A stretch of 64,000 bases of DNA, taken from the NCBI RefSeq assembly GCF_030816935.1, contig NZ_JAUSYO010000001.1:434001-498000 (forward strand), in the 5' to 3' direction. The notes under the pieces were generated by a model. It worked only from the letters and a program-made list of their open reading frames with translations, was not told where the DNA came from and did not search any database. The position numbers and the translations under genes are program-made. Below, in pieces: positions 33,585 through 49,264 of the stretch. Origin of the DNA: Arthrobacter sp. B3I9. Its GTDB lineage: Bacteria > Actinomycetota > Actinomycetes > Actinomycetales > Micrococcaceae. Position 1 is the stretch's first letter; every line of letters starts with the position of its first letter.

Positions 33585-35627
33585 TCAGCGGTAGTTCCGG
33601 TGTAGGTTCTCCTTCTCCGAGGGGCGCGGCCGGGCGTCGGCAATCCAGGGACCGGTCCCCTCGGACTGGTCCAGAACGCCAGCCTCAAGCCAGAGGTACC
33701 CGCCGTCGAGAACCTTGCGGGAGAGAACGCGGTCGGTGTCGTCCGTGTTCCGCCACAGCTGGTCAAAGTATTCCTCCACGCGTACCTTTGCCTGTTCGCA
33801 ATATGCTTCCGCGAGCTCGAAGGCTGAAGCGGCCCGTTCCGGCGCGGTACGCAACAGCATCTCCGCACGCGAGCAGCAGGCGGCCATCGCAAACAGCTCC
33901 GCCCCGATGTCCACGATCCGGCCCAGGAATGCCTGCTTGTGCTCGAGCCCGGCCTGCCAGCGGCCCATCCCGTAGAACGTCTGCCGTGCCAGCCGCCGGG
34001 AGGACCGCTCCACAAAGCGCAGTTGTTTCGCCAGCCGGCCGAAGTCCCCGTAGGAGCGCGGGTCCATGCCGGCCCCGGCCACCAGCTTGGGCAACCACCG
34101 CGCGTAGAACCCGGAGGCACCGACGGCAGCCTTGGCCTTGTCCGAGAGAGTGGCGTCGGCCGACGCAAGGTCGCCGGCGGCCGTCAGGTGCGCGTCGACG
34201 GCTTCGCGGGCAATCAGCAACCTCATGATTTCCGAGGAACCCTCAAAGATCCGGTTGATCCGCAGGTCCCGGACCTGCTGTTCTGCCGGTACAGCGCGCT
34301 CGCCACGGGCCTGGAGTGAATCGGCTGTCTCGAAGCCGCGGCCGCCCCGGATTTGCACCAGCTCGTCCGCGATCCGGCAGCTGATTTCGGTGCACCACAG
34401 CTTGGCGAGGGCGGCCTCGATCCGGACATCCTTCTGGCCGGCGTCGGCCATCTCGGCGCACAGCTCGAACACGGCATCCAGGGCGAAGGCGCTGGCGGCG
34501 ATGAAGGCGATTTTCTTGCCCACCGCCTCGTGCTGGCCCACCGGCCGGCCCCACTGGGTGCGGGCGTTGGACCATTCGCGGGCGATCTTCAGGCTCCACC
34601 GTCCGGAACCAACGCACAGGCCGGGAATGGAGAGCCGGCCGGTATTCAAGGTGGTGAGGGCGATCTTCAGCCCCTGTCCCTCACGCCCCAGCCGGTTGGC
34701 CGCTGGTACCCGGACCTGGTGGAAGCGGGTCACGCCGTTTTCGATGCCACGCAGCCCCATGAACGCGTTGCGGTTTTCCACGGTGATGCCCGGTGAATCC
34801 ATCTCCACCACAAAGGCGCTGATGCCGCCCTTGTGGGCCGTTCCGTCCGGACCGGTGTGGGCGGGGACGAGCGCCATGACGACGACCAGTTCTGCGATCA
34901 CCCCGTTGGTGGTCCACAGTTTGACACCGTCCAGCAGGTACGACTCGCCGTCTTCCGAGGGGACGGCGGTGCTGCCCATCCGTGCCGGGTCGCTGCCGAC
35001 GTCGGGTTCGGTCAGGAGAAACGCCGTGATGGCCCCGGCGGCGCAGCGCGGCAGGTATTTCTGCTTCTGCTCGGGCGTGCCGAACACTTTCACCGGCTCC
35101 GGGACACCGATGGACTGGTGCGCGGAGAGGAGGGCGCCGAGACTGGGGTGCACCGAGCCCAGCAGCGCCAGCGCACGCCCGTAATAGACAAGGGAGAGGC
35201 CGAGGCCGCCGTAGTCGCGCGGGATTTTCATGCCGAAGACGCCCAGCTCCGCGAGGCCCTTGAGGTAACCGTCGGGAATCTGGGCGTCCCGCTCAATGGT
35301 GCGGCCGGACATCGTCCGGCAGTAGGCGGCCAGGCGGGCCAGGAACTCTTCGCCGCGTTCGACGTCGTCCGCCGGGGCTTCAGGCCAGGGGTGGATCAGA
35401 CTTAAATCGAAGTGGCCGAGGTACAGGCCCTTGGCGAAACTGGGCCTGTCCCACGTGGCCTCGCGGGCGGCTTCCGTGATGGCCCGCGCATCGGCCGCGG
35501 TGGCCTCCGGCCCGATCGCTTCCGCGGGGACCGGCATGTCGGTATCGCCGCCGCCGTTCGCCGGCCAATCGCGGGGGACTTCAGTTGGGGTATTCTCAGC
35601 GGCTGGATTTTCGACGGCGGAGCTCAT
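33585..35627 (-). CDS. Acyl-CoA dehydrogenase, long (VLCAD-like) form
   Basis: The 680-residue flavoenzyme oxidises acyl-CoA to trans-2-enoyl-CoA, the first step of beta-oxidation. The N-terminal half contains LGVFGMKIPRDYGGLGLS and AFLLTEPDVGSDPARM (flavin and substrate contacts); the middle has GLRGIENGVTRFHQVRVP and ARTQWGRPVGQHEAVGKKIA; LRINRIFEGSSEIMRLLIARE contains the Glu expected to be the catalytic base in VLCAD-type enzymes. About 180 extra C-terminal residues beyond the normal 390-residue core match very-long-chain and ACAD9-type members, where they aid membrane or dimer contacts. It is a single gene with no other beta-oxidation gene beside it. Confidence 0.9.
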   Translation of the reverse strand: MSSAVENPAAENTPTEVPRDWPANGGGDTDMPVPAEAIGPEATAADARAITEAAREATWDRPSFAKGLYLGHFDLSLIHPWPEAPADDVERGEEFLARLAAYCRTMSGRTIERDAQIPDGYLKGLAELGVFGMKIPRDYGGLGLSLVYYGRALALLGSVHPSLGALLSAHQSIGVPEPVKVFGTPEQKQKYLPRCAAGAITAFLLTEPDVGSDPARMGSTAVPSEDGESYLLDGVKLWTTNGVIAELVVVMALVPAHTGPDGTAHKGGISAFVVEMDSPGITVENRNAFMGLRGIENGVTRFHQVRVPAANRLGREGQGLKIALTTLNTGRLSIPGLCVGSGRWSLKIAREWSNARTQWGRPVGQHEAVGKKIAFIAASAFALDAVFELCAEMADAGQKDVRIEAALAKLWCTEISCRIADELVQIRGGRGFETADSLQARGERAVPAEQQVRDLRINRIFEGSSEIMRLLIAREAVDAHLTAAGDLASADATLSDKAKAAVGASGFYARWLPKLVAGAGMDPRSYGDFGRLAKQLRFVERSSRRLARQTFYGMGRWQAGLEHKQAFLGRIVDIGAELFAMAACCSRAEMLLRTAPERAASAFELAEAYCEQAKVRVEEYFDQLWRNTDDTDRVLSRKVLDGGYLWLEAGVLDQSEGTGPWIADARPRPSEKENLHRNYR

Positions 35628-35691: not shown

Positions 35692-36018
35692 TCAGCTGTC
35701 CCGCAATACTACCCGCGGGTAAGTCCCCGTACTAGGGGCTGCCTGCCCCATAAAGTCCGCCGTGAAGTCGCCGGCCAACTCTCCCGGCAGCTCGACCGTG
35801 GACGCGTGGTGGACCAGCCGGTCCCACAGGTGGTTGAGGCCGCGGACGAGTCCCAGCAGGAGGGTTGCCGAGATAGCCCAGGCGAGCCGTCCGGCGCCGG
35901 TAAGAACCAGGGCGGCGAAGGCCGCTGTCATCATGAAAAGTGCGATTACCAAGGCAAACACGAGTGTTCCGACGAACACCATGGTTGCCGTTTCCACTGC
36001 ACTTAAATCGAACTGCAT
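35692..36018 (-). CDS. Small membrane protein, paralogue-like of 31648-31938
   Basis: This 108-residue protein has a hydrophobic N-terminal half (TMVFVGTLVFALVIALFMMT, then AAFAALVLTGAGRLAWAIS) and an amphipathic, partly acidic C-terminal half. Its order of segments, including TGAGRLAWAI versus AGVGRLVATI in the protein at 31648-31938, points to common ancestry. No named family or function. It stands alone upstream of the acyl-CoA dehydrogenase gene in reverse order, that is, transcribed before it. Confidence 0.6.
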   Translation of the reverse strand: MQFDLSAVETATMVFVGTLVFALVIALFMMTAAFAALVLTGAGRLAWAISATLLLGLVRGLNHLWDRLVHHASTVELPGELAGDFTADFMGQAAPSTGTYPRVVLRDS

Positions 36019-36222
36019 TCTTCCTCCTGCACCGTTGCTGCGGCTGAATCAGTAGCCTGAGCGTAGGGTGCAGAAGCCCGGGTCAGCCAGACCGCCAGGG
36101 GGATGTCGCGGTTCTCGATATGGGATTGGAATGCTACTCACGCGTAGGTCACGGAGCGGTCGCGAAAGTCACGGAGCGGTTGCGAAGGCTCGCCGCTCTG
36201 TGGTGGTGCCGGGCGGGGCCGG

Positions 36223-36741
36223 TCAGTCGTCGTCGAACTCGGGGCCGTCCTGGCCAAGGACCTGGAAGTCCGCGCCTACCTGTACCTCGACCTGGGAACC
36301 GTCCGCGAGCCGGACCTCCACTTCATAGGCGGCGCCGCCGTCGTTCTCCCGTTCCACTTCGCTCACGGTGCCCTGCCCAACCCTGGCGAGGGCGGCGCTC
36401 GCGGCCCGGTCCCGGTCAGCTCCGCTCAGGGCGGCCTGGTTGAAGTCGTCGTCGTCCGGAGCATCCACCGTTGCCTGGAACGAACGGTCAACTTCGACTT
36501 CCACTTTGGCACCACCCGGAGCCAGGACGTCAACCTCGTAGGCGCCGTCATCGGCCTCTGCCTTGAGCACGGTCCCGCCGCCGGTCTTCCCGAGGGCCGC
36601 CTCGCTGGCCTGCTGCAGTTCGGTCCCGCTTAAGGGCCGGTCGTCCGCGCCCAGCGTGTTGGCGGCCACTGCCACCGTCGCGCCGCCTAGAACCACGGCC
36701 GCCGCGGCCACCCCGGTGATGAGCATCGCTTTCTTACGCAT
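36223..36741 (-). CDS. Exported protein with two PepSY domains
   Basis: The 172-residue protein starts with a signal or membrane anchor (KAMLITGVAAAAVVLGGATVAVAA). Two PepSY-like units follow: LSGTELQQASEAALGKTGGG with a GAYEVDVLAPGGAKVEVEVD strand pair, and LSGADRDRAASAALARVGQG with AAYEVEVRLADGSQVEVQVG. PepSY domains often inhibit proteases or bind metal or peptide ligands outside the cell. The ATG at 36741 follows a GGGGAG ribosome site; an upstream in-frame start adds an unlikely extension. It is divergent from the jet genes and ends in an acidic DDD tail. Confidence 0.83.
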   Translation of the reverse strand: MRKKAMLITGVAAAAVVLGGATVAVAANTLGADDRPLSGTELQQASEAALGKTGGGTVLKAEADDGAYEVDVLAPGGAKVEVEVDRSFQATVDAPDDDDFNQAALSGADRDRAASAALARVGQGTVSEVERENDGGAAYEVEVRLADGSQVEVQVGADFQVLGQDGPEFDDD

Positions 36742-36896
36742 GACATCTCTCCCCTCACGTGGTGTACATAGTGTGCTCCTGTACGGAAGAGCAGACAATG
36801 ATCAATCCAAAGTCCGGGCCTGCGTTAACCTTGTAGCTGGCAGTTTTTCGAATCCCCTGCCGCTCCCAAACCCCCGAGGCAGCCGAAGGAGAGTGC

Positions 36897-38369
36897 GTGT
36901 CCCGCTCCGCATTGTCGTCGGCTGACGCCATCGGCGCCCGTCTGCGTGACCTCGAACTCCTCACCAAGGGGCCGGCCTGGGCGCTGACGCGCTCCGCACC
37001 GTGGGTGATTGCCGTCCTTCAGGCCTCCTTCTCGCGCGCCCGCCCCCAACTCCCGCTGGAGCAGTTCCACGCGGACGTCGATGCCTTCCTCGAACAGCTC
37101 CGGCGCCAGACGCCCGGCGGCGGAGAGCAGCATGGCGGAACCGCCCCGGGACCGCTCTCCGGAAAGAAATATGCGGACGAATGGACCCGAAAGAACTTCC
37201 TGACCCGGCGCAACCAGTCCGGGCAGATCGTCTATGAAGTCACGGAGCCCGCGGCCCGCGTCCTCGCTTTCCTGGACAGCCTCTCGAGTGAACGCTCCAC
37301 CCTCAACGGGTCCCGGCTCGGGACGTTGCTGGGAGACGTGGAGAAGCTTGCCAATGAGACGAACCCGGACCAGAGCGCCCGGCTGGAGTCCCTGGAGGAG
37401 GAGATCGGCGAACGGCGCCAGCTCATCGAGGACATCAGCTCCGGGGACTTCGACGGCCTGCTCGACGACGACGAGGCCGTGGAAGCCGCCGGCAACATCC
37501 TGGACCTGGCGGCCAGCCTGCCGGCGGACTACAAGAAGATGCGCGACCGGATCGAGGAGCTCGTTGGTGAGCTCCGCAACCAGATCATCGAGGAGTCGCT
37601 GAGCAAGGGTGCCACCATGGCTCAGGTCCTGGAGGCCGACAAGCGGCTCCGGCAAAGTCCCGAGGGGCGGACGTTCCGCTCCTTCACCGCATTCCTGGAG
37701 GACCCCCAGCAGCAGCTCCGTTTCCGCTCCGCGATCGGCGAGGTGCTCAGCCGGCAGTTCGCAGACGAGCTGAGCCAGGACGAACGCGAAACCCTGAAAA
37801 ACCTCGTCGCGGAGCTCCGCACGCAGCACAGCCAGATCCAGCGCATCTACGGCAAGCTAAGCGAAAGCCTCAACACCTACGTCCAGAGCGACGACTTCCG
37901 CCAGTCGGTCCGGCTCCGGAAGGTCCTGCGCGAAGCGGAGCAGGCCATCCGTACCCTCCCCTACGAACGCGAACGTCCCGGGCTGGTCCGCGGCCCGGTG
38001 CTGTTCAACGCTGGATTCGAGTCCCTCTCGATGGTCAAGCTCTTCGACCCGGACGAATTTGCGGCCCCGCCGAAGCTTGCGGATCCCATCGCGTTCAGCG
38101 ACTCGGACCGGGTGCGGTCACCCCGCACCGTAAAGGCCAGCCCGGCGGCCATCCGCGCCGCTTACGCGGGCGCCTCCTCCCTGCCCGAGGCCTGGGCACA
38201 GCTGCCCGACGAGGAACGGCACATCAACTCCATCCGTGCGCTGCTCGCGCACGCGCTGCACGAGGGCGCGGGCTTCGACCGCGAAATCTGGGACACCCTC
38301 GACTTTGAACAGATCGACGGCTCCACGCGTACCGCGTACCTGCCCGCGGTCACCCCCAAGAAAGACTGA
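36897..38369 (+). CDS. jetA: JetA-like protein (DUF3375), Wadjet/Mks kleisin subunit
   Basis: The 490-residue protein matches DUF3375: an N-terminal helical start [20 protein letters not shown], the winged-helix-like [26 protein letters not shown], then a long coiled-coil middle (about residues 160-260) and [21 protein letters not shown]. In Wadjet (JetABCD, also MksBEFG) this subunit is the kleisin (JetA/MksF) that bridges the SMC dimer. GTG start with AAGGAG five bases upstream. The stop lies two bases before jetB, so the genes are one operon. The family assignment is firm; whether the complex still cleaves plasmids depends on the missing nuclease. Confidence 0.87.
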
Positions 38370-38371
38370 AG

Positions 38372-39364
38372 ATGACTGACGACATCACGCCGGCGCCCGT
38401 AGCGTTCGGTGCCGCCCCTGGCGACCACGGACCCGCCGACCACGGCCACGGCGACCCCTTTTCCATTGCTCCGCGGGACACCTTCGTGGACGGCGCCGCG
38501 TTGTTTCCCGGTGACACCGGCGTCCTGCCGATGAAGGTCCGCCAGGCCCTCGTGAAACTCCTCAAGGGCCCGTATGTCGACGGCGGCCGCGACGAGAAGC
38601 TCTGGACTACTCTGCTCGATAACCAGCTGATCCTCCGCAGCCGCTTGTCGGAACTGTTCCTCACCTTGCAGCTGGACCACGAACGCAAGGTGGCCGTGCT
38701 GCGCCCGGTAGACCCCGAAGCGATCGGCGGCAGCACCCGCTCCAGCATCCTGCGCCAGCAGCGCGCCCTGAGCCGGGTCGAAACCATCGTGCTGCTCCGC
38801 CTCCGCCTGCTCCTGGACCGCCACGTCACCGCGCAGACGGACCCCACCATCACCCGGGAAGAAATTGCCGAACTCGTCGCGCACTACCAGCCAGCCGGCC
38901 AGCAGGACGCCCTGCGCGATGCCGACGTCGTCAGCCGCGCCATCACCAAGCTCCTGGCCCGCCAGCTCCTCCTCCCCACGGGCCTGGACGACGTCTACAC
39001 AATCTCCAACGCCCTCCCCCTGGCCCTGCCGTTCGAAAACATCGGCGACATCCCGGCCCAGATCGAAGCCCTCGTAGCAGCAAGCACCGACCCCTCCGGC
39101 ACAGAACCCCTGCTCGAGCTGGACGGCGACACCGCAGGTCTGGCTGATGACACCGAGGCTGACGACGACGCCGATGCCGTTGGCACAGACGCCCGAGGCG
39201 AGTTGACGAGCGAAGACGACGACGGCGATGCCGCTCCGGGGGTGGCATCGGGCCTGTCGGAGCCGGACGGCCTGCTGCTTGCAGCAGAGCCGTCCGGCGA
39301 AGGGGCGGGGGCGGCATCGCCGTCGGCGTCCCCGAACGCAACCGAAGCGGAGGAAGCCAAATGA
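38372..39364 (+). CDS. jetB: JetB-like protein (DUF4194), Wadjet/Mks KITE subunit
   Basis: Residues about 35-225 match the DUF4194 domain of JetB/MksE proteins: [45 protein letters not shown], and [27 protein letters not shown]. These are paired winged helices that bind the kleisin. The last 80 residues are an acidic, Ala/Asp/Glu-rich tail, unusually long for the family and probably disordered. The coding sequence overlaps jetC by four bases (ATGA), so jetB and jetC are translationally coupled. Confidence 0.87.
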
Positions 39365-42300
39365 GCATCGCAACCATGCTGCCCATGGGCGAGCTGACGA
39401 ACCCCGGCCAGATGCGGCTCGCCCTCGTGCAGGTGGTCAACTGGGGAACATTCCATGGCGCGCATACGATGCATGTGGACCGCAACGGCACCCTGCTGAC
39501 CGGCAATTCCGGCGTCGGAAAGTCCACGCTGTTCGACGCGATGCTGCGGGTCTTTGATGCCCGGCCGCGTTCCAACGAGGCCGCGGCCCAGCGTGCCGGC
39601 GGCGCCGTGGAGGACAAGCGCACCACCTTCACCTACATGCGCGGCAAGGTCGGGGACAAGGCCGTGGGCGAGGGCTCGGCCAGTGCCTTCCAGCGGCCGG
39701 GGGCTACCTGGTCCGCCGTCGCGCTGACCTTCGACAACGCCGTGGGCACGCGCGTGACCATTTCCGCGCTGTTCGACCTGCCGAAGAACGGCACCGAGTC
39801 CAGCGTCGGGCGGTATTACCTGATCGACCACAAGCCGCTGGACCTGGCAGCGCTGGAAGGCATCGCGGAGAAACGGTTCACCAAGGGGGCGCTGGACGCC
39901 ATCTTCCCGGAGGCCCAGGTCTTCGACGTCCACAAGGCCTTCGCGGAGCGTTTCCGGCGGCTGCTGGGGATCAATTCGGACCAGGCCCTCCCGCTGTTGC
40001 GCGTCATCCAGGCCGGCAAGGGCCTCGGCGGCAGCGTCAACACGTTCTTCCGCGACCAGGTCCTGGATGCGCCTGCCACGTTGGCCGCCGCGGACGACGT
40101 CGTCGAGGAATTCAGCAACCTGATGTCCATCCGGCAGCGGCTCGAGGATGTCCGGCAGCAACGTGACCAGCTCGCACCGGTCCCCGGGCTCAACAAGGAG
40201 TACGCCCAGTCCCTGCTCGACGCGAACCGGCTGCGGGACCTCGCCGGGGAGGAGTTCGAGGCCTACAAGCAGCAGCTGGCCGTCTCCGTGCATGAGAAGA
40301 CGCTGGCCAGGCTCAGGGGCCTGGCGCAGGCCAAGGCCAAGGAGCTGGGTGCCGAGCGGGGCGTCCGGGACGGACTGGCCAAGGAACTGCGCCAGCTCGA
40401 GGCGGACTATAACAACCAGGGCGGCAACGCGATCTCCGCGATTGAGCAGTCCCTGGAGAACGCCCGGGTGGGGCTCAGGCTCCGCCAGCAGGTGGAGGAA
40501 TCGGCGCGGAAGGCCTTGTCCGATGCGGGCCTTAAACTGGAATGGACGGCGGCCGGCTGGGAGCAGGCGCACGCGCACGCGGCCGCCCGTTCGGCTGAGC
40601 TGGCCGACGACTCGGAAGCGCTCAAGGAACTGCGCTTCGAGGCCTTCGACGGTCACGCCACCAAGAAGCGCGAGCTTGCGGCCGCCGAGCAGGAATTCGT
40701 CTCGCTGAAGACGCGCAAGTCGCTGCTGCCGCCGTCGAGCATTGAGAACCGGAGTGCCATCGCTGCCGCCACGGGTATTCCGGAAGAGAACATGCCCTTC
40801 GGCGGCGAGCTGGTCGATCTCGCTGAGGGCCAGGAGCAGTGGCGGCCCGCGGCCGAGCGTGCGCTGCGCAGCCTCGCCACCACGCTGCTGGTCCCGGGGG
40901 AACACTTCGCCGCAGTCACCCGGTACCTCAACGATCACTCCGTCCGCGGTGCGGTGCGCGCGGTGGACGTCTCCAAGCCCCTCGCCGGGGGCGCGCTGAC
41001 CGTGGAGGATGCGGGGGACACCGACCTGCTGCGGAAGCTGGACATTCTCACCGACGGCCCTGGGGCGGGTGCCGGCGAGTGGATCCGCGAACGGATCGCC
41101 CTGGATTTTGCGTACCCGTGCGTCGAGGACCCGGATGAGCTCGCGCGGCTGGATAAGGGCCTCAGCCTGGGCGGCGTGGTCAAGCGCAACCGACACACCG
41201 TGGAAAAGGACGACCGGTTCACGTCCCGGCAGGACTATGTCCTCGGCTTCGACAACGCGTCCAAGCTTGAACTGGTCGCGGCGCAGGTCGAGGACCTGCG
41301 GCAGGAGCTTGCCAAGGCTGCCGAACTGGCACAGAGCCGGGAAGAATCGCACCAGGGGATGACCCGGCAGCTTGAGGCCCTGCGGCGTGTCGCCGAGGAC
41401 GACCGCGCGTGGGAGCAGGTTTCGGCCACCGTGGCCGCGGAGGAGCTCGGCCGGATCGAGCAACGGTTGAAGGATGCCCTCGCGGCGCAGGCCGACCTGG
41501 AGCCCTTGCGCGGCAAGATCGAAGTTGCCCGGCAGAAGCACCAGTCCAGCACCGAGGCCGCTGCCGTGTTGCAGAGCGAGTACAAGGCCCTCGATTCGCG
41601 GTTGACGGCTGCCGATTCGCTGCTGGACGCCGCGCGCAACCGGCTGGCGCAGTCGCCGCCGTCGGAGGCCACCGTGACCGCGCTGGAACCGTACTTCGCC
41701 GGTTTCGGCGACGTCCTGGAAATGCACGAACTCGACAACCTCGCCAACCAGGTGCGGACCCGGCTCCTGGCGGAGCTGCACGCCGCTGAGTCCCGCGGTC
41801 AGGCGACGTCGGAGCGGCTCACCCGGATCTTCGAGGGCTTCGTCCGCGAATGGGGCACGGCGATCTCCGCGGACCACGGCACCTCGATCGGGGCGGCGGG
41901 GGAGTTCGAGTCCCGCTACCACGCCATTGTCAGCGACGGTCTGCCCGCCCAGGAGGCCGAATTCAGGCAGTTTTTCAACCAGCGCACGCACGAGTCCTTC
42001 AGCACGCTGCTGCATCTGCTGGACGAGGAACGCCGGTCCATCACCAGCCGCATCCTCCCGCTCAACGGAATCCTGTCAGAGGTGAACTTCCACGAGGGCA
42101 GCTTCCTGGAGCTGGACATCAAGCAGACGCTTCCCGCTACCGCGAAGCAGTTCAAGGACGCCATCCAGAACGCGCTGAAGGTCCGGCACGCGCGGCCGGG
42201 TAAGGCCGGCGCAGCGGAGACTGACGACGACGCCGAGCTCACCGGCCGCTACAAGTCCCTCGAAACGCTGGTCAAGCGGCTCGGCTCGCAGTCGCCGGAG

Positions 42301-42813
42301 GACCGCAGGTGGCGTGCCGAGGTGCTGGATGTCCGCGGGCACCTGTTCATCCAGTGCAAGGAGCACCGCGAGGTCCCGGGCGCTGGTGCAAAGGGCGGGG
42401 CCAAGCAGACCGAGGTCTTCATGCACGCGGACACCGGATCCATGTCCGGCGGCGAGCGGCAGCGCTTCACCGCGTTCATCATGGCCGCGGCGCTGAGCTA
42501 CCAGCTGGGCATTGCCGAGCAGGGCTTCACCACCTACGGCACCGTGATGATGGATGAGGCCTTTGTCCTCGCGTCGGAAGAATTCGCGGGTGCCGGCATC
42601 AAGGCGCTGCACGAGTTCGGCTTCCAGCTGCTGCTGGCCGCCCCGGAGAACGTCATCGACCTGTCGCGGCACCTCGGCTCCGTCACGGAAATCCTGCGGG
42701 ACAAACGCACCAACCGGTCCGGGGTGCTGACCGCACCAGTGATCGGTCCGCGGCCCGGAGCTGCAGGAGCCTGGCGCTCGGAGGCAAACCCGGTGGACAT
42801 CGTCCTCCGCTGA
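39361..42813 (+). CDS. jetC: JetC-like SMC ATPase, Wadjet/Mks motor subunit
   Basis: This 1150-residue SMC-like ATPase drives DNA loop extrusion in Wadjet/Mks complexes. The N-terminal head has [20 protein letters not shown] and Walker [10 protein letters not shown] (residues 48-56). Long coiled coils (about residues 260-450 and 620-880) flank a hinge-like centre. The C-terminal head holds the ABC signature [10 protein letters not shown] (1027-1036) and Walker B TVMMDEAF with Asp1065-Glu1066. All ATPase motifs are intact, so the motor should work. In complete systems the gene is followed by jetD, a topoisomerase-VI-like nuclease; here no such gene follows. Confidence 0.9.
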
Positions 42814-43937: not shown

Positions 43938-45053
43938 ATGACCGCCCCCGTTTCCACAGACCTGCCGCCCTCTTCCTCCCGCGCCGGGCGGCTCCGCAAG
44001 GCCCGGAAGAGTGCCGCCGCCAAGTCCGCGGCGGTGCTGGCCGCCACCGTTTTGTCGCTGACCGCCTGCACCACCGGTGCCGCATCCTCCGCGCCGGCCG
44101 ATTCTGCCGCCCCGAGTGCCAGTTCGGCCTTCCCGGTCACCATCAAGCACGTCTTCGGCGAAACCACCATTCCGGAACAGCCGAAGCGAGTCGTAACCGT
44201 CTCGTGGGTCAACGACGACGTCTCGATCGCCCTCGGAGTAGTCCCGGTGGGGGTGCCCAAGAACGAGTGGGGCGGCAATGACCTCGGATCCACGCCGTGG
44301 AAGGATGCCGCCCTCGAAAAGCTCGGCGCGGGCTTCGGCTCCGAGAAGGCCCCGGCCCAGTTCTCCGAGGCGGACGGGGTCAACTTCACCGAAATCGCCA
44401 AGCTCAACCCCGACGTGATCCTCGGCGCGTACTCCGGCCTGAAAGAAGAGGATTACAAAAAGCTCAGCGAAATCGCGCCGGTGGTCGCGTATCCGGACAT
44501 CGCCTACGGCACGCCGTGGCAGGAAACCACCACCATGATCGGCACCGCGCTGGGCAAGAAAGCGGAGGCCACGAAGCTGGTCGCGGACACCGAAGCCACC
44601 ATCACGGACAAAGTTTCGAAGTACCCGCAGCTGGCGGGCAAGACCTACATCTACGGCAACCTCGAGCCCGCCAAGAGCAACGGCGTCAATGTCTACACGG
44701 CCAACGACAACCGGCCCCGTTTCCTTGACTCCCTCGGCATGAAGCTGGCACCGGTGGTCGAAGAGAAGTCGAAGGGCTCCTCCGACTTCTTCATCCCGTG
44801 GTCCGCGGAGAAGGCCAACGAACTTGAGTCCGACATCTTTGTCACCTGGGTTCCGGACTCCGCCACCACCGCCTCCATCAAGGCCGACCCGCTGCTGGGC
44901 CAGATCCCCGCTATCAAGACCGGCGCCCTGGTGGCCGACTCGGACAACACACTGACCCTGTCCATCTCGGCCTCCTCTCCGCTGAGCCTGCCGTGGTCCC
45001 TCGACACTTTCCTGCCGCAGCTTGCTGCTGCCGCAGACAAAGCAGCGAAGTAG
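43938..45053 (+). CDS. Iron-siderophore ABC transporter substrate-binding lipoprotein
   Basis: This 371-residue protein has an N-terminal signal and lipobox LSLTAC, then the periplasmic-binding fold of FecB/FepB-type proteins: PVTIKHVFGETTIPEQPKRVVT, LNPDVILGAYSGLKEEDYKKL, and GTPWQETTTMIGTALGKKAEA. It would capture ferric siderophore outside the cell and deliver it to the permeases encoded next. AAGGA lies just before the ATG, and the DtxR-type box covers its promoter. The siderophore type cannot be read from sequence. Confidence 0.93.
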   Translation: MTAPVSTDLPPSSSRAGRLRKARKSAAAKSAAVLAATVLSLTACTTGAASSAPADSAAPSASSAFPVTIKHVFGETTIPEQPKRVVTVSWVNDDVSIALGVVPVGVPKNEWGGNDLGSTPWKDAALEKLGAGFGSEKAPAQFSEADGVNFTEIAKLNPDVILGAYSGLKEEDYKKLSEIAPVVAYPDIAYGTPWQETTTMIGTALGKKAEATKLVADTEATITDKVSKYPQLAGKTYIYGNLEPAKSNGVNVYTANDNRPRFLDSLGMKLAPVVEEKSKGSSDFFIPWSAEKANELESDIFVTWVPDSATTASIKADPLLGQIPAIKTGALVADSDNTLTLSISASSPLSLPWSLDTFLPQLAAAADKAAK

Positions 45054-45065
45054 CCACCCTCAGCC

Positions 45066-46193
45066 ATGAATCCACGAACGACGGCGGTCCGGCCCGCCAT
45101 TGGCGCGCCCCCGGTGCCAGCCGCGATGGCGCCGGCAGCGCGCACCACCGAGGCGACCGCAAAGCCTGGCGCCGACGGTCCGGGCCATCCGGACAGCGGC
45201 GGCAACGGCCGCAGCACCTGGTTACTGGCCGCCGTCGTCGTCCTGGCGCTGGTGACTGCGGCATCCCTGGCGGTCGGAGCGCGCGGCCTGGCACCGGAGA
45301 CCGTCTGGCAGGCGCTGACGCAATTCGATCCGGCCAACGGCGACCATGCCGTGGTGCACGCCCGGATCCCGCGCACCGTCCTCGGCCTGCTTGCCGGGGC
45401 CGCCCTCGGGCTCGCCGGAGCCGCCATGCAGGGGCTCGCGCGGAACCCGCTGGCGGATCCGGGCATTCTGGGCGTCAACGCCGGCGCCGCGTTGGCCGTG
45501 GTCACCGGGATCTACGTCTTCGGGATTTCGTCGCTGGGCGGCTACATCTGGTTCGCCTTCATCGGCGCCGCCGCGGCGGCCGCCGTCGTCTACGTCATTG
45601 CCTCGCTGGGCAGGGACGGTGCGACGCCGGTAAAGCTCGCCCTTGCCGGCGCCGCCCTGAGCGCGGGACTGTTCTCGCTGATGAACGTCATCCTGGTGTC
45701 CAGCCAGGACACGCTGGACCGCTTCCGGTTCTGGCAGGTGGGGGGTATCGCCGGCCGTGACTGGTCCGCGGTGCTCCCCGGTGTGCCGTTCCTGGTACTG
45801 GGTGCCGCGATCGTGCTCGGCGCCGGACGGACCCTGAATAGCCTGGCCCTGGGGGACGATATAGCCCGCGGGCTGGGCCAGCGGGTCGGCCTGGTCCGCG
45901 GAATCACCGCGGCGGGCATCGTCCTCCTGTGCGGCTCGGCTACCGCGCTGGCGGGTCCCATCGGCTTCGTGGGCCTTGTCATTCCCCACGCGGTGCGCTT
46001 CCTGAGCGGCCCGGATTACCGCTGGATCCTGCCCATCTCCACGATCCTGGCCCCGGCTCTGCTGCTGGCCGCCGATGTGGCCGGCCGCGTGGTCTTGCTG
46101 CCGGGCGAAGTCCCCGCCGGGATCATGACGGCCCTCGTGGGCGCGCCCGTGTTCGTGTGGCTGGTCCGGCGCGGAAAGGGGGCCTCGTTGTGA
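45066..46193 (+). CDS. FecCD-family siderophore permease
   Basis: One of two membrane subunits of the iron-siderophore ABC importer. The 375 residues start with an Ala/Pro-rich cytoplasmic segment, then about ten helices. Hallmarks are RIPRTVLGLLAGAALGLAGAAMQGLARNPLADPGILG and GPIGFVGLVIPHAVRFLSGPDYR, the loop that contacts the ATPase. It starts 12 bases after the binding-protein stop with no clear ribosome site, so coupling is likely. Its end overlaps the next permease gene by four bases. Confidence 0.93.
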   Translation: MNPRTTAVRPAIGAPPVPAAMAPAARTTEATAKPGADGPGHPDSGGNGRSTWLLAAVVVLALVTAASLAVGARGLAPETVWQALTQFDPANGDHAVVHARIPRTVLGLLAGAALGLAGAAMQGLARNPLADPGILGVNAGAALAVVTGIYVFGISSLGGYIWFAFIGAAAAAAVVYVIASLGRDGATPVKLALAGAALSAGLFSLMNVILVSSQDTLDRFRFWQVGGIAGRDWSAVLPGVPFLVLGAAIVLGAGRTLNSLALGDDIARGLGQRVGLVRGITAAGIVLLCGSATALAGPIGFVGLVIPHAVRFLSGPDYRWILPISTILAPALLLAADVAGRVVLLPGEVPAGIMTALVGAPVFVWLVRRGKGASL

Positions 46194-47368
46194 GGACCGC
46201 ACCCATCGCCGAGCCCGTCAAGCCCGGCGAGCCCGTCGACCCCGCCGAGCCCGTCGACCCCGCCGAGCCCGTCGAGATGACAGTTCGCAGCAGTGTTGGG
46301 CGCGGACATTGGTGTTATCTGCCGACTCGAGGGGCCTTCCGCAGCCGCACCGCGGTGTTGGCGTCCGCCGTCGTGGTTCTCTTCGCAGCGGGCGTCCTGC
46401 TGGGGAGTTACACCGTCACCATCCCGGACTTCTTCCGGATCCTGGCAGCCCACTTCACTGGTGGTCCGAAGATCCCCGGGGCAAGCTTCATCGTGATGGA
46501 GAACAAGCTGCCGCGGGCCGTGACCGGGGCGCTGATCGGTGCTGCATTCGGGCTCTCCGGCGGGCTGTTCCAGACGATGCTGCGCAATCCGCTGGCCAGC
46601 CCCGACGTGATCGGCATCAGCTACGGGGCAAGCGCCGCCGCGGTCACAGCCATCGTGGTCTTCGGGGCCTCCGGCACGGTCGTCTCCGGCGCTGCCCTGG
46701 CCGGAGCGCTCGGCGTTGCCGCACTTATATATGCCGTTTCCCGGAGCCGCGGCCTGGGCTCCGGTCCGGCATCGGGAGGGCGTAGCGATGCTGCCGGCAA
46801 CCGGCTGATTCTGGCTGGAGTCGGGATCGCCGCCGCGCTTCAGGCCGTGGTCAGCTTCCTGATGACCCGGGCGGATATCCGCACTGCCGCTGACGCCCTC
46901 GTCTGGCTCAACGGCTCGTTGAACGCCGCAAGCTGGGACCGGGCCGGGATCCTCGGCCTGGCCTTGCTCGTCCTGATTCCGGCCGTCCTGTTCCTGGCCG
47001 GACGGCTGCGCATCCTCGAACTCGGTGACGATGCCGCCGCCGGCCTCGGCGTCAGGGTCGGAAGCACACGCCTGGCGGTAGTCGTCACCGCCGTCGCCCT
47101 CGCTGCTGCCGGCACGGCGGCGGCCGGTCCGGTTGCCTTCGTTGCGTTCCTCGCAGGCCCCATCGCCCGGCGCTTTGTGCGCAAAGCCAGCCTCCCGGCC
47201 TCGGCCCTCACCGGCGCGCTGATCGTCCTCTCGGCGGACTACGTGGCCGCGAACATCGCCCCGCTGCTTCTGCACGGCACCGTCCTGCCGGTGGGAGTGG
47301 TGACCGGCGCGCTGGGTGCCCCCTTCCTGCTTTGGCTGCTGGTCAGCTCCAACCGAAAGGATGCCTGA
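46190..47368 (+). CDS. Second FecCD-family siderophore permease
   Basis: The partner permease of 392 residues. It has the family loops KLPRAVTGALIGAAFGLSGG, FQTMLRNPLASPDVIGISYG and GPVAFVAFLAGPIARRFV. The GTG at 46190 overlaps the previous stop (GTGA), which fixes the start. Its N-terminus holds a short repeat of Glu-Pro-Val-Asp-Pro-Ala from an 18-bp tandem repeat, an unusual addition ahead of the first helix. The C-terminus runs directly into the ATPase gene. Confidence 0.92.
   Translation: MRTAPIAEPVKPGEPVDPAEPVDPAEPVEMTVRSSVGRGHWCYLPTRGAFRSRTAVLASAVVVLFAAGVLLGSYTVTIPDFFRILAAHFTGGPKIPGASFIVMENKLPRAVTGALIGAAFGLSGGLFQTMLRNPLASPDVIGISYGASAAAVTAIVVFGASGTVVSGAALAGALGVAALIYAVSRSRGLGSGPASGGRSDAAGNRLILAGVGIAAALQAVVSFLMTRADIRTAADALVWLNGSLNAASWDRAGILGLALLVLIPAVLFLAGRLRILELGDDAAAGLGVRVGSTRLAVVVTAVALAAAGTAAAGPVAFVAFLAGPIARRFVRKASLPASALTGALIVLSADYVAANIAPLLLHGTVLPVGVVTGALGAPFLLWLLVSSNRKDA
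46211..46276. repeat. 18-bp tandem repeat in permease gene
   Basis: The unit GAGCCCGTCGACCCCGCC occurs twice exactly (46229-46246, 46247-46264), with a variant before it (46211-46228) and a partial copy after it. It is in frame and encodes a Pro/Glu/Val/Asp-rich N-terminal tail. Confidence 0.85.
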
Positions 47369-47369
47369 A

Positions 47370-48200
47370 ATGGCAGCTTTGCACACCTCCGGCCTGACCC
47401 TCACGTACGGTCAGCGCGCCGTCGTCGAGGGCCTGACCGCCGACATCCCGCCGGGGAAAATCACCATGATCGTCGGCGCCAACGCCTGCGGGAAGTCCAC
47501 GCTGCTGCGGGGCCTGTCCCGGCTGCTCAAGCCCGCCGCCGGCACGGTGACGCTGGACGGCATAGACATCCGTGCCCGCCCCGCCCGCCAGCTCGCGCGC
47601 AGCCTGGGGCTCCTCCCGCAGCAACCCGTTGCCCCGGACGGCATCACGGTCCGCGACCTCGTGGGCCGGGGCCGCTACCCGCACCAGGGCTTTTTCCGGT
47701 CCTGGTCCCCGGAGGACGAACGCGCTGTGCAACGCGCCCTGTCCGCGACAGACACCCTGGTGCTCGCCGAACGCAGCGTGGACGAACTCTCCGGCGGGCA
47801 GCGCCAGCGTGCCTGGATCGCCATGGCGCTTGCCCAGGAAACGGACGTGCTGCTTTTGGACGAGCCGACCATCTACCTCGATCTCGCCCACCAGGTGGAA
47901 GTCCTCGACCTCATCACCGATCTGAACCGGGAGCGCGGCACCACCGTGGTGATCGTGCTGCACGATCTCAACCTTGCCGCCCGGTACGCGGACCACGTCA
48001 TCGCCATGAAGAGCGGACGGATCGTCGCCGAAGGCGCGTCCCGCGACGTGGTCACCGAAAACCTGGTGGAAGAGGTGTTCGGCCTGGCCTGCCGCGTGGC
48101 TCCGGACCCGGTTTCCGGAGCACCGCTGATCATTCCGCTGGGCCGACACCACGCCGAGCCCGTCCACGCCGCAACAACCAGCCTGGAGTTGATCCCATGA
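47370..48200 (+). CDS. Siderophore ABC transporter ATP-binding protein
   Basis: The ATPase that powers the importer, about 276 residues. It has Walker A VGANACGKSTLLRG, a Q-loop LGLLPQQPVAPDG, signature ELSGGQRQRAWIAMALAQ, Walker B VLLLDEPTIYLDLAHQ and the H-loop VLHDLNLAARYAD. The pattern is that of FecE/FepC. The ATG at 47370 has AAAGG upstream and lies just after the permease stop; a slightly earlier ATG at 47361 is possible. It overlaps the next gene by four bases. Confidence 0.95.
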   Translation: MAALHTSGLTLTYGQRAVVEGLTADIPPGKITMIVGANACGKSTLLRGLSRLLKPAAGTVTLDGIDIRARPARQLARSLGLLPQQPVAPDGITVRDLVGRGRYPHQGFFRSWSPEDERAVQRALSATDTLVLAERSVDELSGGQRQRAWIAMALAQETDVLLLDEPTIYLDLAHQVEVLDLITDLNRERGTTVVIVLHDLNLAARYADHVIAMKSGRIVAEGASRDVVTENLVEEVFGLACRVAPDPVSGAPLIIPLGRHHAEPVHAATTSLELIP

Positions 48201-49264
48201 CCGCAACCAACAGCCCCCTCCGCACGATCCACGCGCGGGCGTCGGCGGCCGAACCGATGACGATGGCATTTGAAGTCCAGGTCACGGCGGTTCAGCAGCT
48301 CACACCGACCTTCCGCCGGATCACCTTCGGTGGCTACTCGCTCCGGGACTTCGGCGTGCATGGCAACACCCTGGACCTGCGGATCAAACTCATGATCCCG
48401 TCTCTGGCCAAAGATGGCCACCCCCTCCCGCTGCCCGAATTCCGGACGGAACAGGCGGGCTGGTACCAGGACTGGCTGGGCCAGGACCCGTCCGTCCGGG
48501 GTTCCATGCGCACCTATACGGTCCGCCGGGAGCGCCTTGACGCCGTCTACCCGGAAATAGACGTCGATTTCGCACTGCACGGTGACCATACCGGCCACGG
48601 CGGCCCGGCGGCGGACTGGGCCCTGCGGGCCAGCCCGGGGGATACCCTCAAGCTGATCGGGCCCAACAACAGGGCGGCGCACTGTGTGACCGCGGAACAG
48701 TACTCAGGCATCGAATGGCGGCCCGGCCTGGCCCAGCGCGTACTGCTGGCCGGCGATGAGACGGCCGTCCCGGCCATCAGCGCAATCCTGGAAAGCCTTC
48801 CGCCCTACATGAGCGGGCAGGCCATCCTCGAGGTCCCGGAAAGCGGTGACTTCCAGGACGTGATGACAGCGGCCGACGTCGAGATCAGCTGGCTTGCACG
48901 TTCCACCGCGGCCGGTGGCCCGGTTCCCCACGGCCGGCTGCTGCAGGAAGCGGTCCGCGCCGCGGTGCCGCTCCCCGGCTGGGTAGGCAGGAAGACGACG
49001 GAGCGGGTGGCCGGACCGGAGCCCGAGGACGTCGACGTGGACCAGCACGTCCTCTGGGAGACGCCGGCCCGGATGGACACCGCGGCCATCGCGGCCGGCA
49101 GAAACCCGGACACACCTGCCGGCGTTGCGCCGTTCTATGCCTGGATAGCGGGCGAAGCAGGCGTCATCAAGGAGATGCGCCGCTACCTGGTCCGGGATGT
49201 GGGAATCGACCGGAAACAGGTGGCGTTCATGGGGTACTGGCGCCAGGGCAAGGCCGAGCTGTGA
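48197..49264 (+). CDS. Siderophore-interacting protein (ferric-siderophore reductase)
   Basis: This 355-residue flavoprotein of the SIP/ViuB family releases iron from siderophores in the cytoplasm by reduction. The FAD domain contains SMRTYTVRRERLDAVYPEIDVDFALHG (split around the RxYT motif), then DWALRASPGDTLKLIGPN, and the NAD(P)H side has LLAGDETAVPAISAILESLP and the terminal FMGYWRQGKAE. The C-terminal YAWIAGEAGVIKEMRRYLV is typical. Its start overlaps the ATPase stop (ATGA), so it completes the uptake operon. Confidence 0.94.
   Translation: MTATNSPLRTIHARASAAEPMTMAFEVQVTAVQQLTPTFRRITFGGYSLRDFGVHGNTLDLRIKLMIPSLAKDGHPLPLPEFRTEQAGWYQDWLGQDPSVRGSMRTYTVRRERLDAVYPEIDVDFALHGDHTGHGGPAADWALRASPGDTLKLIGPNNRAAHCVTAEQYSGIEWRPGLAQRVLLAGDETAVPAISAILESLPPYMSGQAILEVPESGDFQDVMTAADVEISWLARSTAAGGPVPHGRLLQEAVRAAVPLPGWVGRKTTERVAGPEPEDVDVDQHVLWETPARMDTAAIAAGRNPDTPAGVAPFYAWIAGEAGVIKEMRRYLVRDVGIDRKQVAFMGYWRQGKAEL

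Follow-up and report, generated by a model that had tools for sequence, protein, structure and literature searches.

Conservation of a jetABC operon without the nuclease gene jetD in Arthrobacter and ten related genera

Introduction

Type I Wadjet systems (JetABCD; also described as MksBEFG or EptABCD) combine a structural maintenance of chromosomes (SMC) ATPase, JetC, with the kleisin JetA, the kleisin-interacting tandem winged-helix element (KITE) protein JetB and the nuclease JetD. Plasmid DNA is extruded by JetABC, and once extrusion is complete it is cut by JetD (PMC12647877). The three-subunit, Muk-like MksBEF complex of Pseudomonas aeruginosa, by contrast, lacks a nuclease and has been proposed to act as a condensin, a precedent that we cite from a review. 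Here, we analyze a 64,000-nucleotide stretch of the Arthrobacter sp. B3I9 genome (contig NZ_JAUSYO010000001.1, positions 434,001 to 498,000; hereafter, the window) that contains a complete jetABC operon without jetD. We find that this nuclease-free operon is near-universal in Arthrobacter and ten related genera, and we suggest that it probably encodes a second, condensin-like organizer of DNA that acts beside SMC-ScpAB.

A DefenseFinder survey gives Wadjet in 42% of Actinobacteria versus 7% of others (PMC10482375). A three-gene operon has also been listed before: Table 6 of a study of Paenarthrobacter lasiusi S21 gives JetA, JetB and JetC without JetD beside a full type I Wadjet, counts the three genes among Wadjet defense and, in the portion of the text covered here, passes over the missing JetD and its conservation without comment (PMC11719660). 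As that entry illustrates, three-gene JetABC operons can enter defense counts that are based on gene names. The Wadjet gene set of PADLOC already covers the group studied here, its JetA1 model fitting the window protein at 836 bits. A search of titles and abstracts, with subscription papers outside its scope, returned no paper on the conservation of JetABC without JetD in Arthrobacter or related bacteria, and we provisionally regard this conservation as new in print.

Results and Discussion

The three open reading frames of the operon, of 490, 330 and 1150 residues and all on the forward strand, lie exactly where a preliminary description of this DNA had placed them, and its claim that JetA, JetB and JetC are complete with all ATPase motifs is borne out. 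jetA (36897–38369, GTG start) encodes an MksF-like kleisin with a DUF3375 domain (298 bits), the product of jetB (38372–39364) is an MksE-like KITE subunit with a DUF4194 domain (100 bits), and jetC (39361–42813) encodes an MksB-like SMC ATPase matched by AAA_29 and SbcC_Walker_B. The PADLOC models JetB1 and JetC1 match with 516 and 1158 bits. JetA (residues 24–322) and JetC match the JetA and JetC chains of the Protein Data Bank (PDB) with E-values of ∼1e-22 and 9e-62, respectively. JetB found no PDB match in a single-sequence search; a profile search matched JetB chains (E 1.3e-6), and the best PDB matches of its predicted core fold are JetB chains followed by MukE chains, with low whole-chain template modeling scores of ∼0.3 by query in a model whose predicted local distance difference test (pLDDT) value is below 50 for 114 of 330 residues. 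In JetC, we read the Walker A motif (39502–39528), the ATP-binding cassette signature MSGGE (42442–42456) and the Walker B motif VMMDEAF (42544–42564), all on the forward strand. Thus, the parts of an SMC-kleisin-KITE complex are all present, and JetA, JetB and JetC of a type I Wadjet are encoded in one operon. The operon shares with type I Wadjet the kleisin, KITE and SMC families, the gene order A-B-C and intact ATPase motifs; by sequence, it encodes a type I Wadjet family complex. It differs from these systems in three respects: it has no JetD, it is near-universal rather than accessory, and it forms a distinct clade.

Several lines of evidence establish the absence of JetD. First, the genome, a single contig of 4,123,267 bases with 99.99% completeness, was searched for JetD/MksG homologs with PF09983 (JetD_C) and PF11795 (DUF3322) at an E-value of 0.001 and gave no match to either, while both searches were positive in the control Corynebacterium glutamicum. 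The JetD of type I Wadjet, with its DUF3322 and JetD_C domains, is therefore found neither in the operon nor elsewhere in the genome; the early claim that no nuclease gene follows jetC in the window holds and extends to the complete genome. A JetD borrowed from elsewhere in this genome is refuted by the same searches.

Second, we compared 120 loci of the genus, 40 of the window type and 80 named loci (the best 80 of 157, from Arthrobacter, Pseudarthrobacter, Paenarthrobacter and one Micrococcaceae bin). The two sets overlap, and the 120 loci (the genus loci) contain 115 distinct JetC proteins. All 120 encode jetA, jetB and jetC, with JetA cut by a contig end in L163 and L177 (locus and genome labels are ours). 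The 4-base overlap of jetB and jetC, noted early on as translational coupling, recurs in 118 of them. A JetD-profile search of these loci with E-values up to 10 returned a single match, at E 0.095, and no JetD; the same profile detects JetD in 30/30 control loci, which also supplied its seeds. At least 1.5 kb beyond jetC was available in 114 of the 120 loci. Third, in ten other genera of the family, JetD is missing from all 20 loci inspected (the family loci), each with more than 7 kb downstream. The preliminary description had named, as a finding that would count against it, that this type of operon never has jetD, and this is what the inspected loci show, 120/120 in the genus and 20/20 in the ten other genera.

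The operon is close to fixed. DUF3375 was detected in 148 of 150 genomes of the genus, including all 141 of high quality, and the two genomes without it are 68% and 63% complete; this count establishes the family, not the window type genome by genome. In a draw of 197 genomes of the family Micrococcaceae, searched with the window's own JetA at a threshold of >300 bits, window-type JetA was found in 11 genera, in all but two (G185 and G251) of their 88 genomes (86/88), with identities of 41–94% outside its own genome, and in all 12 genomes of the window's genus at ≥80% identity. No JetA above this threshold was found in the 109 genomes of 21 other genera of the family. In both JetA and JetC trees, the 20 family loci and the window form one clade, which a quick IQ-TREE analysis of JetA recovers with a Shimodaira–Hasegawa-like approximate likelihood ratio (SH-aLRT) of 100; the program warns of long branches elsewhere in this tree (f11 with accessory Wadjets), and the next larger supported set adds 22 rows, of which 16 lack and 6 have JetD. 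Synteny is lost between genera, a gene outside jetABC being common to at most 6 of the 20 family loci, where genes were called by a simple codon-bias rule. Altogether, nuclease-free jetABC is a near-universal operon of Arthrobacter and ten related genera.

JetD does occur in these bacteria. JetD_C was matched in 66 of the 150 genomes of the genus, several of the matches being fragments, and in 29 of the 88 genomes of the 11 genera. Twenty JetD-bearing operons from the genus and family, which were picked for having JetD and serve as a positive control rather than a survey, all fall outside the window's clade in the trees. In four genomes (G002, G101, G104 and G110), the accessory JetA is only 22–24% identical to that of the window. 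Judged by their sequences, the JetD operons inspected in the genus are different, accessory Wadjets. Some genomes hold both kinds of operon (e.g., G002, G104, G172 and G334), so that a nuclease-free complex might use the JetD of a coexisting accessory Wadjet; the preliminary description had envisaged a borrowed nuclease in general. We regard this as highly improbable: 82 of the 148 JetA-bearing genomes of the genus, including the complete one studied here, have no JetD_C match, nor do 58 of the 86 genomes in which the family draw detected window-type JetA, and the accessory JetA and JetC belong to separate clades with the low JetA identity noted above. The idea of a borrowed nuclease therefore fails for JetD in most genomes, while an unrelated nuclease could still be borrowed.

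A JetD too diverged to be recognized could also give the appearance of absence, since JetD is variable and profile searches can miss far relatives. This is very unlikely for several reasons. The two Pfam domains were without a match genome-wide; an iterated profile that reaches E ∼1e-102 in the distant, order-level loci L323 and L326 finds no JetD in the 20 family loci; and no further gene shows linkage to the operon across genera. The N terminus of JetB is not informative. In a solved system, an IFDR motif there is the docking site for JetD (PMC10586767). This motif is not visible in the JetB proteins of our JetD-bearing loci either, and an L-F/W-x-G-D-x-G stretch is present in many JetB proteins of both kinds and missing in some accessory, JetD-bearing ones.

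The preliminary description had also considered a recently inactivated defense system, i.e., a decaying Wadjet from which jetD has been lost. The median ratios of nonsynonymous to synonymous substitution rates (dN/dS) across 29 relatives are 0.079 for JetA, 0.122 for the JetB core and 0.082 for JetC, and 0.096 for the neighboring acyl-CoA dehydrogenase (28 pairs). The relatives were every fourth of the 115 loci that remain when L067, L078, L090, L163 and L177 are left out, and the ratios are rough because dS is high (0.8–1.0). In the best JetC piece per genus locus, the Walker A motif is identical in 118/120, the signature is MSGGE or LSGGE in 117/120 and the Walker B motif is identical in 117/120; the exceptions are L067, L078 and L090, in which jetC looks split, and L177, which is cut by a contig end. 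The 20 family loci all have the three motifs. The split or frameshifted jetC of those three loci may be sequencing error or real decay. The conserved motifs and the strong purifying selection on jetABC argue against general decay. Recent inactivation is ruled out by intact genes, dN/dS values of ∼0.08 and the lack of JetD in all 120 loci; with a JetD-less state that is common to 20/20 loci of ten other genera, we consider a decaying Wadjet hardly credible.

Altogether, our analysis favors a model in which the nuclease-free JetABC (MksFEB) complex is probably a loop extruder that is kept as a second, condensin-like organizer of the chromosome or of large replicons. Homology suggests that the JetA kleisin and the JetB KITE protein would join JetC dimers into an ATP-driven loop extruder, probably dimeric, that loads onto DNA and draws it in. 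With JetD missing, full extrusion of a circle could not end in the Wadjet cut, and for this reason the motor would instead compact or tidy DNA, with the chromosome as its most likely target and large replicons as a further possibility. Assembly of the complex, loop extrusion and the chromosomal target are each inferred. ScpA is encoded in the genome, and canonical SMC-ScpAB is therefore very likely present as well. The near-constant presence of the engine without its DNA-cutting part suggests a different, probably housekeeping role that concerns the DNA of the cell itself. Of the functions first proposed for the operon, a housekeeping MksBEF condensin is the best supported, by near-universal presence, purifying selection and the lack of a conserved linked nuclease, except that JetB is not a member of the MksE family.

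Several observations weigh against this model. JetB scores below the cut-off of MksE (PF21980; 22 versus 27 bits), as opposed to 100 bits for DUF4194, and this JetB therefore falls outside the MksBEF family from which the precedent comes. Near-universal presence alone is no proof of a chromosomal role. In the actinobacterial relative C. glutamicum, the chromosome is not shaped by MksBEFG, a system that includes the nuclease (PMC7083940). The locus L251 of genus g8 groups apart from the g8 loci L240 and L241, and some transfer or replacement has therefore occurred. Among 15 matches of JetC to 72,556 plasmid records, two relatives lie on records labeled as plasmids, one of 1.35 Mb in Arthrobacter StoSoilB13 (L335, NZ_AP024648.1; JetC 87%) and one of 754 kb in Arthrobacter ERGS1:01 (L334, NZ_CP012477.1; JetC 41%, with 8 kb of downstream annotation that includes no JetD); these records may be secondary chromosomes or assembly pieces. 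The other 13 matches are at 35% or less, and 50,697 phage records gave one partial match. Finally, jetABC is origin-proximal in 27/27 genomes measured, within 36% of the half-chromosome from dnaA (several chromosome lengths are rounded table values), but six accessory Wadjets that were measured are equally origin-proximal, and location therefore proves nothing.

The principal alternative is that the complex still acts in defense against plasmids or phages, either with an unlinked, non-JetD nuclease that makes the cut or by restriction through compaction or silencing. The sequence is that of a type I Wadjet complex, and Smc5/6 provides an example of silencing of extrachromosomal DNA by an SMC complex alone. 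A helper nuclease is conceivable because a RecB-family nuclease fused to a helicase is encoded near jetA in 6 of the 20 family loci (L242, L243, L248, L249, L250 and L252, in genera g22, g23, g24 and g30) and on the ERGS1:01 record (L334:2059-5679). These proteins have up to 1209 residues, and two copies are cut by the locus end. However, in a search at the loci only, this nuclease/helicase was found near none of the 120 genus loci, and no gene outside jetABC is common to more than 6 of the 20 family loci. Moreover, near-fixed presence in whole genera would be unusual for a defense gene. We therefore consider a continued role in defense unlikely, though a serious contender to the condensin-like organizer.

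JetD-less operons also recur beyond the family. At the level of the order, JetD is absent from six loci of family f8 (L312–L314, L318, L319 and L325), a family that also has JetD-bearing loci (L267, L268 and L326), from three loci of genus g10 and from family f11. On the JetA tree, at least eight changes of JetD presence are needed among the 89 rows of known state, 12 of the 101 rows being dropped because their JetD state is unknown. In a draw of 394 genomes of the class, 66 JetA places (≥290 bits) were found in 60 genomes, of which 27 have JetD within 9 kb and 39 do not, adjacency being judged from coordinates only; 32 genomes with such a JetA have no JetD match at all. The tally omits shorter or split JetA proteins, e.g., those in G578 (261 bits, no JetD) and G590 (256 bits, JetD on the same contig), and JetD places below ∼40 bits, none of which is the sole JetD of a genome with a counted JetA. 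Contig ends or diverged JetD proteins may account for some of the 39 places. The PF11855 score separates the two kinds, with JetD in 22 of 23 places above 400 bits and in 5 of 43 below, at a split that was chosen after the data were seen.

Based on these observations, we tentatively propose that actinomycetes hold a large and deep set of nuclease-free JetABC complexes, which would have no part in defense and instead form a second, lineage-fixed class of bacterial condensins, and that the motor has switched repeatedly between roles in immunity and in chromosome maintenance. If so, nuclease-free motors could make up a share of the Wadjet enrichment described for Actinobacteria. Because JetD-less JetA places recur across the class, calling by gene name may overcount Wadjet defense.

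Some order-level loci have unusual arrangements. In L313, L318 and L325, the three f8 loci scanned, the JetD-less jetABC adjoins leuS, which encodes leucyl-tRNA synthetase and marks a core location. In the f11 loci L298, L299, L301 and L310, jetA, jetB and jetC are dispersed over ∼9 to 12.5 kb among other genes; in L298, jetB is separated from jetC by siderophore uptake genes (binding protein, FecCD and ABC plus SIP), whereas jetB adjoins jetC in L310. No JetD is found within 3.2 to 3.7 kb beyond jetC in L299, L301 and L310.

The acidic tail of JetB that had been pointed out as an oddity is real. It comprises approximately residues 239–330 (39086–39361, forward strand) and is modeled as disordered, with pLDDT mostly below 50 from about residue 240 to 330. 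Its length varies across the genus from 40 to 155 residues (median 66.5), with medians of 27% Asp plus Glu and 2% Lys plus Arg in 118 measurable loci; these lengths are counted from a core-end motif ∼16 residues before the start of the modeled disorder. In other genera, JetB mostly has a shorter end, and this end is often acidic. An acidic end also occurs in at least one JetD-bearing JetB, that of L307, and therefore does not distinguish the JetD-less type. Within the tail, a short palindromic element of 92 bases (39244–39335, forward strand) is read in frame; besides its own inverted match, the genome contains at least two more elements that resemble it, with 91% and 81% identity, a lower bound with 40 of 89 candidates scored. 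Another shared insert is present in the tails of L094, L102 and L103, three of 12 relatives' tails inspected. We suggest that the tail is probably not a new domain but a disordered acidic extension under weak constraint, in which in-frame inserts are tolerated. An autoinhibitory or DNA-mimicking role is a speculative possibility.

Upstream of jetA, a conserved block (36821–36896, forward strand) consists of TGCGTTAACCTTGTA (36821–36835), a GGCAG-TTTT stretch and an AAGGAG ribosome-binding site. With up to two mismatches, TGCGTTAACCTTGTA has exactly one match in 118 of the 120 genus loci and is not found in the 20 family loci; several of these instead have a TAGAAT- or TAAAAT-like hexamer upstream of jetA. 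Column conservation was determined on 60 of 119 aligned upstream sequences. The GTG start of jetA is at the same place in 105 of 119 genus sequences, including the window. The block is a putative promoter; a sigma-70 consensus sought in it gave no match, and a search for SOS boxes upstream of jetA matched in only 1 of 119 sequences. A scan for tRNA genes detected none in the window or in nine relatives, and an Rfam scan of 36000–37500 gave four matches, all below gathering scores.

The genes on either side of the operon lie outside the system and mark its location. A divergent acyl-CoA dehydrogenase gene (33585–35627, reverse strand), identified by Pfam and homologs, has a homolog at 112 of 120 genus loci with a median identity of 85% and marks a conserved locus in the genus. 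Siderophore uptake genes (Peripla_BP_2, FecCD, FecCD, ABC_tran and SIP; 43938–49264, forward strand), identified in the same way, have homologs at 66 to 97 of the 120 loci, depending on the gene, with loci that end at different distances. Thus, the chromosomal place of jetABC is conserved in the genus.

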